Source: Acidobacteria bacterium RIFCSPLOWO2_12_FULL_66_21 (lineage in GTDB: Bacteria > Acidobacteriota > Vicinamibacteria > Vicinamibacterales > 2-12-FULL-66-21). Taken from it: a DNA stretch of 58,403 nt. The translations under genes were made by a program, and so were the position numbers. The first letter of the stretch is position 1. Each line of letters opens with the position of its first letter. Shown here piece by piece: positions 37,664 to 44,956 of the stretch. The stretch covers positions 175,680 to 234,082 of the forward strand of contig MELC01000036.1 of NCBI GenBank assembly GCA_001767455.1, given 5' to 3'. Below the pieces are notes generated by a model, which saw nothing but the letters and a program-made list of their open reading frames with translations, had not been told where the DNA came from and did not search any database.

Positions 37664-39331
37664 TCACTTCAGCGCGTCCGCGAACAGGCGCTCGAGCGTC
37701 CGCGGGGCGGACGCGCTGTCCTTCACATGGATGCGCACGGTGCGCCGGCCGTGCGCTTCCAGCGTCCCCACGTCGCCCAGCGCCTGCGCGCGCTTCAACA
37801 CGGCGAACGAATATCCCGCCTCCGGAATCGGCGTCTCCGTCTCGTCGTCTGCCGTGATCACAAACGCGACCGCGGTGTTCGGTCCACCCTTGTGGTACTG
37901 CCCCGTTGAGTGAAGATACCGCGGACCGACGCCGAAGGTCGTGGCCGAGTGTCTCCTCGCGCGAATGGCGTCACGAACCTCCGCAATCGCGGCGGTGACG
38001 TCCGCCTGGTGCGGCAGGTACGACAGGAACGCCGCGTAGTCGCCCGCGCCAATTGAATCCACCGCCGCGCGAATCACCTCCGACGGCGAGCCGCCGGCAG
38101 CGGTCCGCGAATACACCGCGACGCGATCGTCGGCGGCGGCGGGCGCGGGTTCTGTCAGTTTCCCGCTCGCCGCGAACCGCGCGAGCAGTCCCTTCGTCTT
38201 CTCCTTGGCCTCCGACACGTTCGTCTCGTCGAAGGGATTGATGCCGAGCGCCGCGCCCGCCACGGCGGTCGCGAACTCCCACTGGAAGAACTCCGCTCCA
38301 AGCCCGTCGATCCTCGTCGTCAGTCGCAGGACCGGATGGCCGGCGTCCTGGATGGCGGCCAGCTTGCGCCCGTCGGGCGCATCGACCTCGGTCGCGATGG
38401 CGACAAACGCGCGATCGCGCCCGTATGCGTCGGGATGCCCGAGCGGCTCGTCGACGACAGGTAGTGCCCCCTTGCCGTGCTTGCCGGTGCTCTCGGCGAC
38501 AAGCTGCTCGATCCACAGGCCGAGCGAGGCGAGGCGAGGCGACAAGGCCAGTGTCAGCTTGTCGCGCCCGTCCTTCACCGCGGCGCCGATGAACGTGCCG
38601 AGCTGGAGCCCGGCGTTCACGTGGCTCTCCTCGCGACAGCCGCCGGCCATGGCCGCGCCGCCGGCGAGGATCGCCTCTACAGGCGCGCCGATGAGCGCGG
38701 CGGGAACGAGGCCGAACAAGGAGAGCGCGGAAAACCGGCCGCCGATGTCGGGCGGGTTGATGAAGACGTCCCTGTAACCGCGCGACTCCGCAAGCGTCCG
38801 TAGCGCGGTGTCCGGGTCGGTGATGGCGATGAACTGACGTCCGGCGGAGGCGCCGAGCGCCGCGGCGACGCGCTGCCAGAAGAACCGCTCGAGCGAGGCG
38901 ACTTCAACGGTGCCGCCGCTCTTGCTGGACACGACGATCAGCGTTCGGGCGGGATCCATGCGACCCCCCGCCGCCGTTATCGTGGCTTCGTCGGTCGTAT
39001 CGAGCACGGCCAGGTCCGGATAGCCCTCCGCCACACCAAACACCGCGCGTAGGACTTCGGCGCACAGACTGCTCCCGCCCATGCCGAGCAGGTACACGGA
39101 CGTGATGCCGCCGGCCTTCACGGATTCCGCGAGCGCGCGGATCCGATCGAGCTCGGGCGTCATCGTGCGCGCGACGTCGAGCCAGCCGAGGCGCGACGAG
39201 ATGGAGGCGGCGTCGGCGCTGCCGGGCGCCGCGCCCCAGACGCTGATGTCGCGCTCCCATATCCGGGGCACGATGCGATCGCGCAGGAACTCGTCCATCA
39301 GCCGAACGTGTGGGTCGTATTTGGTGTGCAT
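37664..39331 (-). CDS. Glucose-6-phosphate isomerase-like SIS protein
   Basis: 555 residues. SIS-type motifs: YLLGMGGSSLCAEVL and IVVSSKSGGTVE in the first half, INPFDETNVSEAKEKTK and a C-terminal GVGPRYLHSTGQYHKGGPNT typical of the isomerase half of bifunctional transaldolase/Pgi proteins. It should interconvert glucose-6-P and fructose-6-P. The transaldolase half is absent. The ATG at 39331 is chosen because sequence upstream is a tandem repeat array that happens to stay open in this frame. Confidence 0.85.
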   Translation of the reverse strand: MHTKYDPHVRLMDEFLRDRIVPRIWERDISVWGAAPGSADAASISSRLGWLDVARTMTPELDRIRALAESVKAGGITSVYLLGMGGSSLCAEVLRAVFGVAEGYPDLAVLDTTDEATITAAGGRMDPARTLIVVSSKSGGTVEVASLERFFWQRVAAALGASAGRQFIAITDPDTALRTLAESRGYRDVFINPPDIGGRFSALSLFGLVPAALIGAPVEAILAGGAAMAGGCREESHVNAGLQLGTFIGAAVKDGRDKLTLALSPRLASLGLWIEQLVAESTGKHGKGALPVVDEPLGHPDAYGRDRAFVAIATEVDAPDGRKLAAIQDAGHPVLRLTTRIDGLGAEFFQWEFATAVAGAALGINPFDETNVSEAKEKTKGLLARFAASGKLTEPAPAAADDRVAVYSRTAAGGSPSEVIRAAVDSIGAGDYAAFLSYLPHQADVTAAIAEVRDAIRARRHSATTFGVGPRYLHSTGQYHKGGPNTAVAFVITADDETETPIPEAGYSFAVLKRAQALGDVGTLEAHGRRTVRIHVKDSASAPRTLERLFADALK

Positions 39332-39337
39332 AGTACA

Positions 39338-39568
39338 GGCAGCCCCGAAGGGCTGCGCAACACGAGGCAGCCCCGAAGGGCTGCGCAACACGAGGCAGCC
39401 CCGAAGGGCTGCGCAACACGAGGCAGCCCTGAAGGGCTGCGCAACACGAGGCAGCCTTGAAGGGCTGCGCAACACGAGGCAGCCTTGAAGGGCTGCGCAA
39501 CACGAGGCAGCCTTGAACCGCCGCGCCACCCGGCGCGTTCCTGTTGCGCAGCCCTTTAGGGCTGCCTG
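39338..39568. repeat. 28-bp tandem hairpin repeat array
   Basis: Six full copies of a 28-bp unit run without spacers from 39338 to 39505, then a partial copy. Each contains a perfect 7-bp stem GCAGCCC-CGAA-GGGCTGC; later copies carry CCTGAAGG or CCTTGAAGG instead of CCCGAAGG. A reversed relative (GCAGCCCTTTAGGGCTGC) ends the array at about 39548-39565. It lies directly upstream of the Pgi-like gene, so a transcript entering from the right would contain a row of hairpins. Confidence 0.85.
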
Positions 39569-39580
39569 GGAAGGCTGGCG

Positions 39581-40403
39581 TCACCCGACCTGGCGGTTGA
39601 TCACGAGCAGCTTGGGCTCGGTCATCTCTTCGAACGTATAGCGCGGCCCCTCGCGGCCCATGCCGGAGTCCTTGACCCCGCCATACGGCATGTGATCGAT
39701 GCGCCACGTGGGGCCGTCGTTGACGATGACGCCGCCGGTCTCCAGCTCGTCGAAGGCGCGTAGCGTGTGTTCGAGATCGGCCGTGAACACGCCGGCCTGG
39801 AGTCCATACGTCGAGCGATTGACCTCGGCGATCGCCTGCTCGAATCGCGAAAAGCGGAAGAGCGCCACGAGTGGGGCGAAAACCTCGTGCGCGCAGACGC
39901 GCGCATCATTCGGCACGTCGCTCAGGATGGTCGGCGCATACACGGCGGGACCGAGACGGCGGCCGCCGGTGAGCACTCGGGCGCCGGCCCGGGTGGCTTC
40001 CCCGACCCACGCCTCGATCCGCGCGGCTTCGCTTTCTTCAATCATCGGGCCGAGATCCGTTGCCGGAACCAGCGGATCGCCGACCTTCAGCGCTTCGACG
40101 AGACGCACCAGGCGCGCCGTGAAGTCGTCGTAGATCCGATCGTGCACGTAGACGCGCTGCACCGAGATGCAGCTCTGCCCGGCAAACGCAAAGCCACCGG
40201 CGGCGATACGTTTCGCGGCGAAGTCGAGCGCCGCACTTTCGTCCACGATCACGCCCGCGTTGCCGCCAAGCTCGCTCGAATTCATCGTCGCCGGCCAGCC
40301 ATGTGCGGCCGATCGCGCTGTTGTCGTAGGGATTCCTGACATCGAGCGGCTGATTGGAACGGCTGGGCTGGCCCTGAAGGAAGAAAGGGAATTCGGCGCT
40401 CAC
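39581..40403 (-). pseudogene. Aldehyde dehydrogenase with a large internal deletion
   Basis: From GTG 40403 the first 40 or so residues (SAEFPFFLQGQPSRSNQPLD, then NPYDNSAIGRTWLAG) match an ALDH N-terminus. At about 40268-40280 the sequence jumps, with a frame change, to SELGGNAGVIVDE, the catalytic-Glu region normally more than 200 residues later. The C-terminal half is intact: catalytic Cys in GQSCISVQRVY, HEVFAPLV, and YGGVKDSGMGREG near the end. The cofactor-binding middle is lost, so no active enzyme can be made. The junction shows a GAGCGAGC microhomology. Confidence 0.85.
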
Positions 40404-40580: not shown

Positions 40581-40910
40581 ATGATTAATGTGACACCGGC
40601 CGCGGCAACCAAGATTTCCGAGCTGCTCACCGAGGAAAACAAGGTCGACGCCGGCCTGCGCGTGTTCGTTCAGGGAGGCGGCTGTTCGGGCTTCCAGTAC
40701 GGGTTGATGATCGACGAGGGCGAGGGGGACGCCTCGACCGATGCGGTCATTCAGTCCAACGGCGTCAAGCTGCTCGTGGATCCGATCAGCGCGCGGTACC
40801 TGAAGGGTGCCGAAGTCGACTTCGTGGACAACGTGACCGGCGGCGGGTTCACCATCAGGAATCCCAACGCCAAGTCCACCTGCGGCTGCGGTTCGTCGTT
40901 CAGCGTGTAG
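40581..40910 (+). CDS. erpA: A-type iron-sulfur cluster carrier (ErpA/IscA)
   Basis: 109 residues with the three conserved cysteines of A-type carriers: Cys in GGGCSGFQYG and the C-terminal CGCG of KSTCGCGSSFSV. It accepts and transfers 2Fe-2S or 4Fe-4S clusters to apoproteins. The paralogue name (ErpA, IscA or SufA) cannot be settled from this alone; isc and suf genes are not in the window. It is followed by the Fur-ferritin fusion gene on the same strand about 95 bp later, an iron-related pairing. Confidence 0.88.
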   Translation: MINVTPAAATKISELLTEENKVDAGLRVFVQGGGCSGFQYGLMIDEGEGDASTDAVIQSNGVKLLVDPISARYLKGAEVDFVDNVTGGGFTIRNPNAKSTCGCGSSFSV

Positions 40911-41004: not shown

Positions 41005-41988
41005 ATGGAGCCGACTGCCTACCTCGAAAGTCTCCGTCCGGCCGGCAGCAAACGGTCGAGCAAGCGCGATCTCATTGTCAACGTCTTCCTCCGCCAGGAG
41101 GGGCACCTCACCGCCGACGATCTCTTCGATCTGATCCGCCGCGAGGACCAGCGGATCAGCCGGGCGACCGTGTACCGGACGCTGCAGTGGATGGTCGATG
41201 CCGGCATCGCCAGGAAGGTGGATTTCGACGAGGGGCGCTTCCGCTTCGAGCATTCCTACCGGCACCCGCGGCACTTTCATCTCATCTGCAAGACCTGCAA
41301 CCGCTCGTTCGAGTTTCTCAGCTCGGACATCGAGGCGTTGATCGAGGAGGTGGCGGCCGCGCGGAATTTCACGGCGCGCCAGAGCGTGCTGCAGATCCAC
41401 GGGACGTGCGAACCGTGCCGGACCGGGCGTCCCGCGGCGGCGGAACAGGGCGCGACCGACGCGCTCTTCGCGCGCGACGCGCTGCGGATTGCCATTGCCA
41501 CCGAGCGCAGCGGCCTGGACTTCTACACGCGCGCGGCGCGGCTCACGCGCGACGCGCGCGGCCGGCGCGTGTTCGAGAAGCTCGCCGGCGAGGAGAAGGA
41601 GCACCTGGCCACGCTCGAGCGCCGGTATCGCGAGCTGCTCCTGCCCGATCCGCAGCTCGAGTCACAGCCGACATTCCTGTTCTTCAAGGGAGCCGCCAAC
41701 GGCCTGTTCTCGGCCGGCGCCGAGCAACTGGCGGCAGGCGTCAACGATCGCCAGGCGCTGATGATCGGCATCCGCTGCGAGCGGGGCTCGCACAAGTTCT
41801 TCAAGCGATACGGCGAGAAGTTCGAGGACTCCGAGGGCAAGAGGATTTTTCTCGAGTTCGCCGACGAGGAGCGCGCCCACCTCGATCTGCTGATCCGCGA
41901 GTATCGCGGCCTCGTCGAGCGCCAGCGGCGCCGCGCCGGGCGGCAGGCGCCGGCGCGCAAGCGGCGCCGCGAGGCCGCCGCGCTCTGA
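41005..41988 (+). CDS. Fur-family regulator fused to a ferritin-like (rubrerythrin-type) domain
   Basis: 327 residues. Residues 1-140 are a Fur domain: winged helix with ISRATVYRTLQWM (51-63), then the His-rich metal site (H87, H90, H92) and the structural zinc cysteines CKTC (95-98) and CEPC (135-138). Residues 152-305 are a four-helix ferritin-like domain with duplicated diiron motifs: E167 in ATERSGLDFYTRA, E197xxH200 in EEKEH, E259 in RCERGSHKFF, and E289xxH292 in DEERAH. The tail is Arg-rich. The single frame has no stop between the halves. Likely role: metal- or peroxide-dependent regulation, with the diiron domain as sensor or reductase (inference). Confidence 0.9.
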   Translation: MEPTAYLESLRPAGSKRSSKRDLIVNVFLRQEGHLTADDLFDLIRREDQRISRATVYRTLQWMVDAGIARKVDFDEGRFRFEHSYRHPRHFHLICKTCNRSFEFLSSDIEALIEEVAAARNFTARQSVLQIHGTCEPCRTGRPAAAEQGATDALFARDALRIAIATERSGLDFYTRAARLTRDARGRRVFEKLAGEEKEHLATLERRYRELLLPDPQLESQPTFLFFKGAANGLFSAGAEQLAAGVNDRQALMIGIRCERGSHKFFKRYGEKFEDSEGKRIFLEFADEERAHLDLLIREYRGLVERQRRRAGRQAPARKRRREAAAL

Positions 41989-42040
41989 GCACCCGCCTTC
42001 GCGCTACGCGCTACGGCGGGGCAGGCCCCTGCGCACCTTT

Positions 42041-42120
42041 GAGCGCCCCTCAGCACCCGTGAGCACCCTTCAACACCCGTGAGCACCCTTCAGCACCCGT
42101 GAGCACCCCTCAGCACCCTG
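42041..42120. repeat. 20-bp tandem repeat, four copies
   Basis: Four consecutive 20-bp units begin at 42041, 42061, 42081 and 42101, of the form GAGCACCCYTCARCACCCGT. The last unit forms the first codons of the PHP gene, and each unit boundary offers a GTG. Unit length is not a multiple of three, so copy number changes the reading frame of any upstream start. Confidence 0.85.
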
Positions 42121-42941
42121 TGATCGATCTCCATCTGCACACGACCGCCTCGGACGGCAACCTGGCGCCCTCCGCGCTCGTCGAACGCGCGCAGGCCGCC
42201 GGCATCACCATCCTCAGCGTGACGGATCACGACACCGTCGCCGGCCTTGCCGAGGCGCGCGCCGCCGCCGCGCGCCTCGGCGTGACCCTCGTCACGGGCA
42301 TCGAGATGACCGCCGTCGAGCGGGGACGCGACGTTCACATGCTCGGCTATTTCTTCGACGGCACGAGCCGGGACCTCTCCGCGTTTCTGGAACGGCAGCG
42401 CGCGGATCGCCTGCGCCGCGTGGCGGAGATCGGCGAGCGGCTGCGGGAGCTTGGCGTCGCGGTTGACGTAGACGCGCTCGTCACCTCGGGGGCCGCGAGG
42501 CCCGAACGGAGCATCGGCCGGCCGCAGGTCGCCGACGCGCTCGTCGCCTCGGGCCACGTGCGCGATCGGAGAGAGGCGTTCGACACGCTGCTCGGCGACG
42601 ACTGCCCGGCCTACGTGCCGCGGCGGGGCAGCGGTCCCGCGGGCGTCATAGCGGTGGTGCGGGCGGCCGGCGGGATCGTCTCACTCGCCCATCCCGGTCT
42701 GCTCGGCATGGACGCGCTCGTGCCGGTTCTCGCGGCAGAAGGTCTCGCCGCGATAGAAGTGCGCCACAGCGATCACGACGAAGCGACGGAACGGCATTAC
42801 CGTGCGCTTGCAGCGCGTCACGGCCTTGCGGTGTCGGGCGGCTCCGATTTTCACGGCGAAGGCCTGGGGCGCAACGCCGTCATCGGCGCGGTCACGCTGT
42901 CGCCCGAGGACTTCGAGTTGCTCCGGGCGCGGGTGCCATGA
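42099..42941 (+). CDS. PHP-domain phosphoesterase (YciV/RnaseAM-like)
   Basis: 280 residues. Metal motifs of the PHP family are present: DLHLHTTASDG (H12, H14), SVTDHDTVAG, a His in VSLAHPGLLG, and SGGSDFHGEG at the end. Relatives include the 3'-5' nucleotidase/5'-3' exoribonuclease RnaAM (YciV) and 3',5'-bisphosphate phosphatases. GTG at 42099 lies inside the last copy of a 20-bp repeat; GTG 42120 is an alternative start that excludes it. The 3' end overlaps the degenerate ABC gene by 4 nt. Confidence 0.88.
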   Translation: MSTPQHPVIDLHLHTTASDGNLAPSALVERAQAAGITILSVTDHDTVAGLAEARAAAARLGVTLVTGIEMTAVERGRDVHMLGYFFDGTSRDLSAFLERQRADRLRRVAEIGERLRELGVAVDVDALVTSGAARPERSIGRPQVADALVASGHVRDRREAFDTLLGDDCPAYVPRRGSGPAGVIAVVRAAGGIVSLAHPGLLGMDALVPVLAAEGLAAIEVRHSDHDEATERHYRALAARHGLAVSGGSDFHGEGLGRNAVIGAVTLSPEDFELLRARVP

Positions 42942-43654
42942 GCGCGGCGCCCGGGCCTCCCATCCTCGAGATCAGCCACGTCGTCAAACGTCATGCCGGC
43001 CTGCGCCCGCTGCGCGTGCTGTCGCTGCTGATGCGCGCGGGCGAGCGGGTTGCGCTCAGCGGGCTCGACGCCGGGGCTGCCGAGCTCCTCGTCAACCTGA
43101 TCACCGGGTCGTCGCTGCCCGAGGAAGGCACCATCCGTGCCTTTGGACGCGGCACCGCCGACATTGCGAACGGCGATGAATGGCTCGCCTCGCTCGATCG
43201 TTTTGGAATCGTCAGCGATCGAGGCGTGCTCCTCGAAGGCAGCACGCTCGCCGGGAATCTCGCGATGCCCTTTACGCTGGCCATCGATCCGATGTCCCAG
43301 GAGACGCTGGCGCGAGTCTCGGCGCTCGCGGCGGAATGCGGAATCGAGGCGCGGTGGCTCGATCGGCCTGTCGCCGAGGCGCCGGCCGCCGTCCGCGCGC
43401 GCGCGCACCTGGCGCGGGCGGTCGCGCTCGGTCCGTCGCTGCTGCTCGTCGAACATCCGACCGCGATGGTGCCGCGGGAGGATATCCAGGCCCTCGCAGA
43501 GGACACGCGGCGGCTGCTCGCCGGACGTAACCTGACGGCGCTGGTCATCACCGCGGACGCGAGCTTCGCGAACTTCGTCGGGGACCGAGTGCTGAGGCTC
43601 GAACCCGCGACCGGGAAGCTCGTCCCGGCGAAGAAGCGAGGACGGTGGTGGTAG
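42938..43654 (+). CDS. Degenerate ABC-transporter ATPase-like protein
   Basis: 238 residues with the general course of an ABC nucleotide-binding domain, similar to MlaF-type proteins (ILEISHVVKRHAGLRPLRVL, LITGSSLPEEGTIRAFG). The Walker A position reads SGLDAGAAELL with no Lys. The signature LSGGQ position reads VAEAPAAVRARAHLARAVAL, and Walker B is LLLVEHPT instead of LLLDEPT. ATP hydrolysis is therefore unlikely. It is co-translated with the PHP gene (ATGA overlap), and no permease is adjacent. It may be a regulatory or structural pseudo-ATPase; this is inference. Confidence 0.75.
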   Translation: MSAAPGPPILEISHVVKRHAGLRPLRVLSLLMRAGERVALSGLDAGAAELLVNLITGSSLPEEGTIRAFGRGTADIANGDEWLASLDRFGIVSDRGVLLEGSTLAGNLAMPFTLAIDPMSQETLARVSALAAECGIEARWLDRPVAEAPAAVRARAHLARAVALGPSLLLVEHPTAMVPREDIQALAEDTRRLLAGRNLTALVITADASFANFVGDRVLRLEPATGKLVPAKKRGRWW

Positions 43655-43662
43655 CCGCGCGC

Positions 43663-44226
43663 TTACTTCTTCGTGAACACGCCGCACGCGACCCGCGGTC
43701 CGCCGCTGACTCCGGATTTCGGTTCACCCGTGATTCCCTGATCCGGGTTGCCGTGGATGACAATCGCGGTGCCGTCCGCATCGAAGATCGAGAGCGGGCC
43801 ATCCGACAGCGTCACCCGGGTGGTCGTGGCTTTCAGCGTCCCGCGCCCGTTCGCCCCGGCCTGGAGATTGGGCACGTCGCCCATGTGGAACGGGTGGTTC
43901 GCGTCGGGGTCCGTGTTGCCGGCCGGACCGGGATCGAAGTGGCCGCCCGCCGCGGTGAAATCCGGCTCGCACTTTCCGATCGCGTGGAGGTGCACGCCGT
44001 GCATGCCCGGCTTCAGTCCGCTCGCCGCGACCGTGATGTCCACGACGATGCCGGTGCCGATCTTGCGCTCCGTGAGGTCGGCGGTTCCCGTGATCCCGTC
44101 CCCCTTGATGTCGGCATGCGCGGTCACGGTGCCGGCCGCGCGTGTCGCGGCCGGCGCCTGCGCCAGCCCGATCGCGCCGGCGCCCGCGCACATCAGGATG
44201 GTGGTGTATATCCTGGCTCGAGTCAT
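43663..44226 (-). CDS. sodC: Superoxide dismutase [Cu-Zn]
   Basis: 187 residues with a signal peptide (TTILMCAGAGAIGLAQAPAA). Copper and zinc ligands lie in MHGVHLHAIGKCEP, AAGGHFDP and NHPFHMGDVPNL; IVIHGNPDQ and a final GPRVACG carry the remaining His and the disulfide Cys. It detoxifies superoxide in the periplasm. The ATG at 44226 follows GGAGG. Convergent with the ABC-like gene, divergent from the HAD phosphatase (40 bp between starts). Confidence 0.95.
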   Translation of the reverse strand: MTRARIYTTILMCAGAGAIGLAQAPAATRAAGTVTAHADIKGDGITGTADLTERKIGTGIVVDITVAASGLKPGMHGVHLHAIGKCEPDFTAAGGHFDPGPAGNTDPDANHPFHMGDVPNLQAGANGRGTLKATTTRVTLSDGPLSIFDADGTAIVIHGNPDQGITGEPKSGVSGGPRVACGVFTKK

Positions 44227-44266
44227 GTCGTCCTCCAGCCGCGATTGTAGATCGGCGATTTCAACG

Positions 44267-44956
44267 ATGCGCAAACTGATCCTGTTCGATATCGACGGCA
44301 CGCTCGTTCTCACCGGCGGCGCCGGGCTGCGCGCGATGAACCGCGCGTGCGCGGACATCGCGGGCAACGCCGAAGCGCTCTCGGGCATTCCCGTCGCCGG
44401 CCGCACCGATCGCGTCATCCTCGCGGATGTCGTCAGCCGGCTCGGCCGCACGCTGGACGATCGCCTGCTGGATCATCTTCGCGAGCGCTATCTGGTGCAC
44501 CTTCGGGAGGAGATCGAGCTTCCCGGCCGCGGCGTGAAAGCGGTGATGCCCGGCGTCCGGGGGCTGCTCGACGCCCTGGCGCGGCGCGACGACGTCTTTC
44601 TCGGTCTGCTGACGGGCAACTTCGAGGAAGGCGCCCGCCTCAAGCTCGAGCACTTCGATCTGTGGCGCTACTTCCGCTGCGGCGCGTTTGCCGACGATGC
44701 GGCCGACCGCAACGCGCTCGTGCCCTTCGCGTGGGAACGCGCGCGGCGGCTGGGGCTTCCGGAGCTTGCCGCGCAACACACGCTTGTCGTGGGAGACACG
44801 CCGCACGACATCGCGTGCGCGCGCGAGGTCGGCGCGATGGCGGTGGGCGTGGCGACCGGCGGATTCACCTCGGCCGAGCTTCACGACAGCGGCGCCGACG
44901 TCGTGTTCGAGGACCTGAACGACAGGGAGAGGTTCTTGGAGCTGCTGGATCGGTGA
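44267..44956 (+). CDS. HAD-superfamily phosphatase (phosphoglycolate-phosphatase-like)
   Basis: 229 residues. Motif I D8-I-D10-G-T in LILFDIDGTLVLTGG, motif II LLTGN, motif III Lys in ARLKLEHF, and motif IV VVGDTPHDIACAR. The overall pattern resembles Gph/PGP-like proteins. The start ATGCGCAAAC at 44267 is chosen because upstream sequence is antisense to sodC. No operon partners. The exact substrate is uncertain. Confidence 0.88.
   Translation: MRKLILFDIDGTLVLTGGAGLRAMNRACADIAGNAEALSGIPVAGRTDRVILADVVSRLGRTLDDRLLDHLRERYLVHLREEIELPGRGVKAVMPGVRGLLDALARRDDVFLGLLTGNFEEGARLKLEHFDLWRYFRCGAFADDAADRNALVPFAWERARRLGLPELAAQHTLVVGDTPHDIACAREVGAMAVGVATGGFTSAELHDSGADVVFEDLNDRERFLELLDR

Follow-up and report, generated by a model that had tools for sequence, protein, structure and literature searches.

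The locus described here raises the question of whether a single bacterial gene joins a Fur repressor to a second metal centre of the ferritin type and, if so, what kind of site each half carries and what the second one might add to regulation. The window, by which we mean the whole stretch of 58,403 nucleotides that was analysed, contains a frame for which an original prediction had claimed a complete Fur domain, with its metal site and two CxxC motifs, continuous with a ferritin-like domain bearing the four Glu and two His ligands of a diiron centre. The frame opens with ATG and runs uninterrupted, and the ligands lie at the predicted residues. The gene, its parts, and its neighbours on either side are arranged as follows.

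40581 to 40910, forward strand: ErpA-like A-type Fe-S carrier gene (NCBIfam ErpA model, 142.1 bits, cut-off 117)
41005 to 41988, forward strand: fur-ferritin fusion gene, a single open frame with an ATG start, 327 amino acids
41041 to 41421, forward strand: Fur domain (residues 13 to 139), a winged helix with metal site H34, E82, H90, H92, and E103 and structural zinc cysteines C95, C98, C135, and C138
41422 to 41466, forward strand: linker (residues 140 to 154) between the Fur and ferritin-like domains
41467 to 41922, forward strand: ferritin-like diiron domain (residues 155 to 306) with ligands E167, E197-H200, E259, and E289-H292, composed of two similar halves
42099 to 42941, forward strand: PHP-domain gene, downstream
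42938 to 43654, forward strand: ABC-ATPase-like gene, downstream

Both halves were recognised when the protein was searched with Pfam models, the check that had been proposed for it. The FUR model matched residues 13 to 131 (E 2.8e-26, 92.4 bits against a cut-off of 23.1), with profile positions 2 to 120 of 121 covered, a result that together with the residue conservation described below bears out the claim of a complete Fur domain. The Rubrerythrin model (PF02915) matched the COOH-terminal region in two stretches (E 7.5e-11, 43 bits, cut-off 22.8), and all 22 fusion members scanned matched both models. We obtained a structure model of the fusion from 53 sequences with AlphaFold2 (mean pLDDT of 82.6); it showed a winged helix, a dimer domain, and a four-helix bundle, with a pTM of 0.61 that leaves the relative placement of the Fur and ferritin-like domains unfixed. 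The four-helix domain spans about residues 151 to 313 (helices 151–180, 184–212, 248–272, and 277–313), and the six diiron ligands fall into one group per predicted helix. Conservation was assessed in an alignment of 84 homologues with at least 60% identity from the order of the window genome, which is probably Vicinamibacterales, and 23 distant homologues with 30 to 42% identity. The spacing from C138 to F155 was 17 to 19 residues in 82 of the 84 order members, the linker sequence itself being poorly conserved, and an R157-D158 motif at the domain junction was present in all 84 order fusions and all 23 distant ones. A Fur DNA-binding and dimer domain is joined in this one conserved protein, by way of a short linker, to a ferritin-like domain.

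The fusion was carried by 57 of 60 genomes of the order, in 56 of them at full length without an internal stop and in one (G298) cut by two contig ends; all 29 other order genomes in a draw of 297 Acidobacteriota gave full-length protein matches with 67 to 79% identity. These counts rule out a stop-codon or assembly artefact, including the scenario in which close relatives encode the two halves as separate genes and the junction results from a stop-codon error. Three order genomes were without the fusion. In G306, which belongs to the same family and is rated 100% complete, the erpA stop directly abuts the PHP-domain gene at L154 (G306:C74) and the fusion has been cleanly lost, indicating that its function is dispensable or replaceable. 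In G321, 53 bases separate erpA from the end of its contig, and G299 is without a close erpA match; the absence in these two genomes may reflect an assembly gap. A FUR profile search gave a Fur-family match in 59 of the 60 genomes. In 36 of the 60, with the two pieces in G298 counted as one (otherwise 35), the fusion was the only PF01475 match at E 0.001, a count that misses divergent Fur proteins beyond this threshold and genes in unassembled parts. As the only such match in these 36 genomes, the fusion seems to fill the Fur role in the order.

Recurrence in other Acidobacteria had been named in advance as support for a real system, and beyond the 57 order genomes the architecture recurs, at 30 to 42% identity, in nine other Acidobacteriota families (f16, f19, f29, f36, f48, f53, f56, f61, and f63). 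A profile of 22 sequences applied at E 1e-58 matched 59 of the 297 Acidobacteriota genomes; in 55 the match included the ferritin part, and in 4 it was confined to the Fur part. These matches include 10 fusions of family f36 that are absent from the profile itself. The 55 ferritin-bearing matches comprise all 30 order genomes and 25 genomes outside the order, two of which are truncated where a contig ends or a stretch of N intervenes. The two genomes that share the class but not the order of the window genome each yielded a plain Fur, the frames measuring 160 and 169 amino acids, and no fusion in the profile search. The same profile and threshold gave no fusion among 245 genomes from the L105 phylum (titled Nitrospirae) or among 132 from the L106 phylum (titled Zixiibacteriota), neither search including a positive control inside the phylum. 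The remaining phyla were covered by the close-relative contig scan alone, which gave 76 loci, all close homologues except L104 to L107. On single inspection, L104, L105, and L106, from other phyla, showed no match spanning both the Fur and the ferritin parts; their ferritin-like matches lie in frames of their own. L105, considered as a possible fusion, was rejected as a ferritin-like protein of 175 amino acids.

A tree of Fur domains built from 15 of 85 order sequences, 23 distant fusions, and 26 plain Furs placed the order fusions in one group (100/99) and the other fusions in another (88/78). In a second tree, with 12 order and 22 distant fusions and 23 plain Furs (L131, L137, L133, and L104 being left out), the fusions required two changes and formed one group in 26% of bootstrap trees, and a single clade was not rejected (p-AU of 0.377). 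The fusion may have arisen once or repeatedly; the similar linker length and the shared R157-D158 motif favour one origin.

The kind of Fur present in the NH2-terminal half was judged from structural matches and from residues of the metal site. Among the best 50 of 66 Foldseek matches at E 0.001, all were Fur-family chains (Fur, PerR, Zur, or Mur), and NCBIfam models for Fur scored highest (73.4 and 67.7 bits) yet far below their own cut-offs. The five metal-site residues and the four cysteines were found in 83 or 84 of the 84 order homologues, one row being gapped (C95/C98 in 83, C135/C138 in 84), and all Fur metal ligands, together with both CxxC motifs, were kept in 23 of 23 distant homologues. 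According to the available part of a published account (PMC4866751), the PerR site consists of His37, Asp85, His91, His93, and Asp104, Fur has Glu for Asp104, residue 104 of PerR is thought to govern H2O2 access and is linked to H2O2 sensitivity, and in Zur a Cys replaces the first acidic ligand and no equivalent of His37 is present. The fusion shares with PerR, as described there, a common family and a five-ligand layout, whereas it has Glu103 at the position of Asp104 (83 of 84 order homologues, with one gap, and 23 of 23 outside the order); the conserved Glu82 and His34 set it apart from Zur, and its three His residues together with Glu103 are those of an iron-type Fur. Given this Fur-type site, we predict that the Fur half senses Fe2+ and not peroxide; any peroxide or oxygen input would then need to enter through the ferritin-like half.

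Like Fur proteins (PF01475), the fusion has the complete domain, the fold, the four structural zinc cysteines, and a regulatory site of three His and two Glu; it differs by the ferritin-like COOH-terminal domain of about 150 residues and by replacement of the residues of a third site in Escherichia coli Fur. We take this further site to be formed by His87, Asp89, and His125. The corresponding positions in the order are R89 (83 of 84), F91 (76 of 84), and S127 (64 of 84), and are never His or Asp; His is present at position 91 in 22 of the 23 distant fusions and at position 127 in 17 of them. The window genome has a second Fur-family gene (L133 4323–5027, on G000:C38), for which the best model was PerR with a score below its cut-off, and a haem peroxidase gene (PF00141, L133 5091–6737) follows it directly. 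The presence of this distinct PerR-like gene, next to one for a haem peroxidase, leaves the fusion as the iron-type Fur of the window genome.

For the COOH-terminal half, VIA-align placed the COG1633 protein 2oh3 at the top (Z of 15.7 over 141 residues, 3.6 Å), next to PA4880 (Z of 15.6) and rubrerythrin 1b71 (Z of 14.8); values within 1 count as ties, as these three do, and helical bundles generally score high. The best sequence relative was 1vjx (TM1526). COG1633 proteins (TM1526 1vjx, 2oh3, and 2fzf) have a similar fold and stand alone, whereas here the domain is fused to a repressor. Internal repetition is visible in the bundle, one half aligning with the other (local score of 102, compared with a best of 50 in 500 shuffles), a similarity that fits the double match to PF02915. 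Rubrerythrin shares this Pfam family and fold with the fusion; however, no rubredoxin domain was found among Pfam matches to the fusion at E 0.1, and the second helix-C Glu of rubrerythrin, which we take to lie three residues after the first, corresponds to S262. Position 262 was Ser in 84 of 84 order homologues and Ala, Ser, Thr, or Asn in 23 of 23 outside, so that none of the 107 homologues had Glu there. The COG1633-type arrangement of E, ExxH, E, and ExxH, with one motif per predicted helix, is present, and these four Glu and two His residues resemble a symmetric site of the ferroxidase type, set in a COG1633-like fold. We class the second half as a ferritin-like domain of the PF02915/COG1633 type. 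Of the predicted designation as a rubrerythrin/ferritin-like domain, the latter part stands and the name rubrerythrin goes too far.

Two other proteins invite comparison. Ferriperoxin is also without a rubredoxin domain, as stated in the available part of its description (PMC3317640), and is likened to the fusion here by description rather than by sequence. The end of the PRK12775 model (positions 838 to 997 of 1006) matches residues 132 to 302 of the fusion with 60.8 bits, far below its cut-off of 1895; judging from the model name, this trifunctional protein carries its ferritin domain on glutamate-synthase and hydroxylase modules and not on a repressor. No Fur-ferritin or Fur-rubrerythrin fusion was described in the titles and abstract openings of the open-licence literature that was searched.

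Each of the six diiron ligands was present in 84 of 84 order homologues, and this strict conservation argues that the diiron site works in the order. Among the 23 distant homologues, E167 was present in 18, E197 in 19, H200 in 19, E259 in 14, E289 in 20, and H292 in 23; all six ligands were kept in 13, and the other 10 showed losses with the Fur ligands all intact. The ten ligand-losing fusions (L117 and L119 to L127) all belong to family f36, of which the eleventh member, L114, keeps its ligands. In a random 40 of the 84 order sequences, the ferritin half had a mean pairwise identity of 0.74, close to the values for the two parts of Fur (0.79 for the DNA-binding part and 0.72 for the other); the ten ligand-losing fusions gave 0.49 for the ferritin part and 0.88 for the DNA-binding part. 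The ferritin half is thus conserved like the Fur half in the order and drifts where ligands have been lost, which suggests that the intact site is under a constraint of its own. Given that the fusion persists in f36 despite the decay of its ligands, the diiron centre is not essential to the architecture everywhere.

The Fe-S carrier gene that had been placed about 95 bp upstream proved to be ErpA-like, and 94 bases separate its stop from the ATG of the fusion. At 84 of 85 order loci the fusion is preceded on its own strand by an ErpA-like gene, L078 being the exception, and the distance from the erpA stop to the aligned fusion start in the order is –9 to 391 bases (median of 57). Homologues of the PHP-domain gene and of the ABC-ATPase-like gene were found within 4.5 kb on the same strand at 66 and 52 of the 85 order loci, respectively, counts limited by the presence of at least 2 kb of downstream sequence at only 56 of these loci, and at 0 of 23 loci outside the order. 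Outside the order, an ErpA-like gene was present at 6 of 23 loci, 2.1 to 4.5 kb away. In f36, inspection by eye without a family search showed apparent nuoD and map genes upstream of the fusion at 9 of 11 loci, including 8 of the 10 that have lost ligands, and apparent nuoI, lpd, and lipB genes often downstream.

Fur proteins respond to Fe2+; where oxidants influence iron regulation, the usual explanation invokes either separate regulators or the chemistry of the Fur site. We tentatively read the fusion as the order's main, and often only, iron-responsive Fur, a repressor to which another iron centre contributes an iron or oxidant input, an interpretation that falls a little short of probable. 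Fe2+ at the Fur site would license DNA binding, and the diiron site would bind iron, react with O2 or H2O2 in the manner of a ferroxidase or peroxidase, and add a second input through the shared dimer by a presumed communication between the domains. Repression would then depend on iron and oxidant state together, and oxidation could either release or strengthen DNA binding. Cotranscription of erpA and the fusion, as their adjacency suggests, would tie the regulator to Fe-S supply. The original prediction had one transcription factor combine a redox diiron centre with the sensing of metal or peroxide; the two ligand sets are indeed fused, the Fur site is of the Fe2+ type, and joint sensing may fairly be proposed. 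Against a two-input repressor, 10 of the 23 distant fusions keep the domain without the full set of ligands, so that it can serve there without a diiron site, and the link to erpA is not kept outside the order. The clean loss in G306, the low NCBIfam scores for Fur, and the failure of the searches described below to find an operator weigh on the same side.

A protective role for the ferritin-like domain would account for some of these observations without any signalling. By removing H2O2 or O2 or by holding iron close to the Fur site, it might act as a local guard or iron buffer that shields or loads the repressor. Ferrous regulator sites can be oxidised, the ligand set is of the ferroxidase type in a COG1633/bacterioferritin-like fold, and the site has been lost in one family (f36) in which the Fur ligands are intact, all of which would suit such a role. 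A stand-alone COG1633-like protein could nevertheless provide it in trans, as the separate frames in three genomes of other phyla illustrate, and the fact that the two domains are strictly joined in 57 of 60 genomes of the order points to a need for one-to-one coupling. We consider a guard or buffer unlikely, if worth keeping in view. The ten homologues that retain the domain with broken ligand sets could also be explained by an oligomerisation scaffold, in which the four-helix domain only strengthens the dimer or builds higher-order assemblies on DNA and the metal site is structural. Self-association is indeed common among ferritin-like domains. The invariance of the six ligands in 84 of 84 order homologues, their retention in 13 of 23 others, and the weaker conservation that accompanies ligand loss nevertheless make a purely structural role rather improbable. 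The diiron site might, finally, be a low-affinity second Fe2+ site that reports iron overload and has no redox role, standing in for the further E. coli Fur site that is replaced in the order. Given that sites of four Glu and two His in the ferritin-like fold normally react with O2 or H2O2, we regard an iron-excess sensor of this kind as very unlikely.

A two-input repressor would have a wider bearing. A Fur protein with a conserved ferroxidase-type site would constitute a built-in link between iron and oxidant signals, and a whole order of soil and water bacteria, few of them cultured, would have it as their main regulator of iron. Haemerythrin-type iron sensing is known from FBXL5, in which a diiron domain sits on a regulator of iron homeostasis. 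BRUTUS, according to the available part of one report (PMC12022348), likewise carries a diiron domain on such a regulator and suggests a similar way of working. FBXL5 and BRUTUS are eukaryotic ubiquitin ligases with a haemerythrin fold, and the comparison implies no common origin with the fusion. It is conceivable, and still somewhat doubtful, that a whole order relies for master control of iron on a repressor that carries a diiron centre of the ferroxidase type and detects the coincidence of iron and oxidant within a single protein, a counterpart in function of the eukaryotic haemerythrin sensors that is assembled from Fur and ferritin components. Natural controls exist in the homologues with decayed ligands, in the gene-loss relative G306, and in the two genomes of the same class and another order that have a plain Fur.

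An operator was sought with TGANAATNATTNTCA, which we take to be the classical 7-1-7 Fur box pattern. With up to 2 mismatches, it occurred at 41 places in the window genome, compared with 4 for the reversed pattern. In 18 of 20 regions with such places, the place lay inside a gene predicted by a simple script (in four of them within the first 12 bases) and in 2 outside, and inspection by eye of the 20 regions revealed no evident iron-uptake gene behind a 7-1-7 place. Three other genomes had 18 to 23 places, compared with 3 for the reversed pattern; one of them, G306, which has no fusion, had 18. The pattern thus fails to reveal the operator. The 84 sequences upstream of erpA yielded no Fur-box-like operator; TATAAT was the one motif in evident excess (63 observed, 46.5 expected), and palindrome counts exceeded the averages of the shuffled sequences yet stayed inside the span of 20 shuffles, the shuffling being approximate.

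Several other features of the window were observed around the fusion gene. On the reverse strand, positions 39581 to 40342 encode only the COOH-terminal half of an aldehyde dehydrogenase (profile positions 233 to 459 of 461), apparently truncated, beside erpA. A 28-bp tandem repeat of 6.5 copies with a 98% match (39337–39517) lies in the NH2-terminal part of a reverse-strand open reading frame (37664–39529) and gives a repeated peptide. The interval between the fusion gene and the PHP-domain gene contains about 5 copies of a 20-bp repeat (42025–42123), and about 1.7 kb downstream of the fusion a Cu/Zn superoxide dismutase gene (PF00080, E 2.3e-31) occupies positions 43663 to 44451 on the reverse strand.
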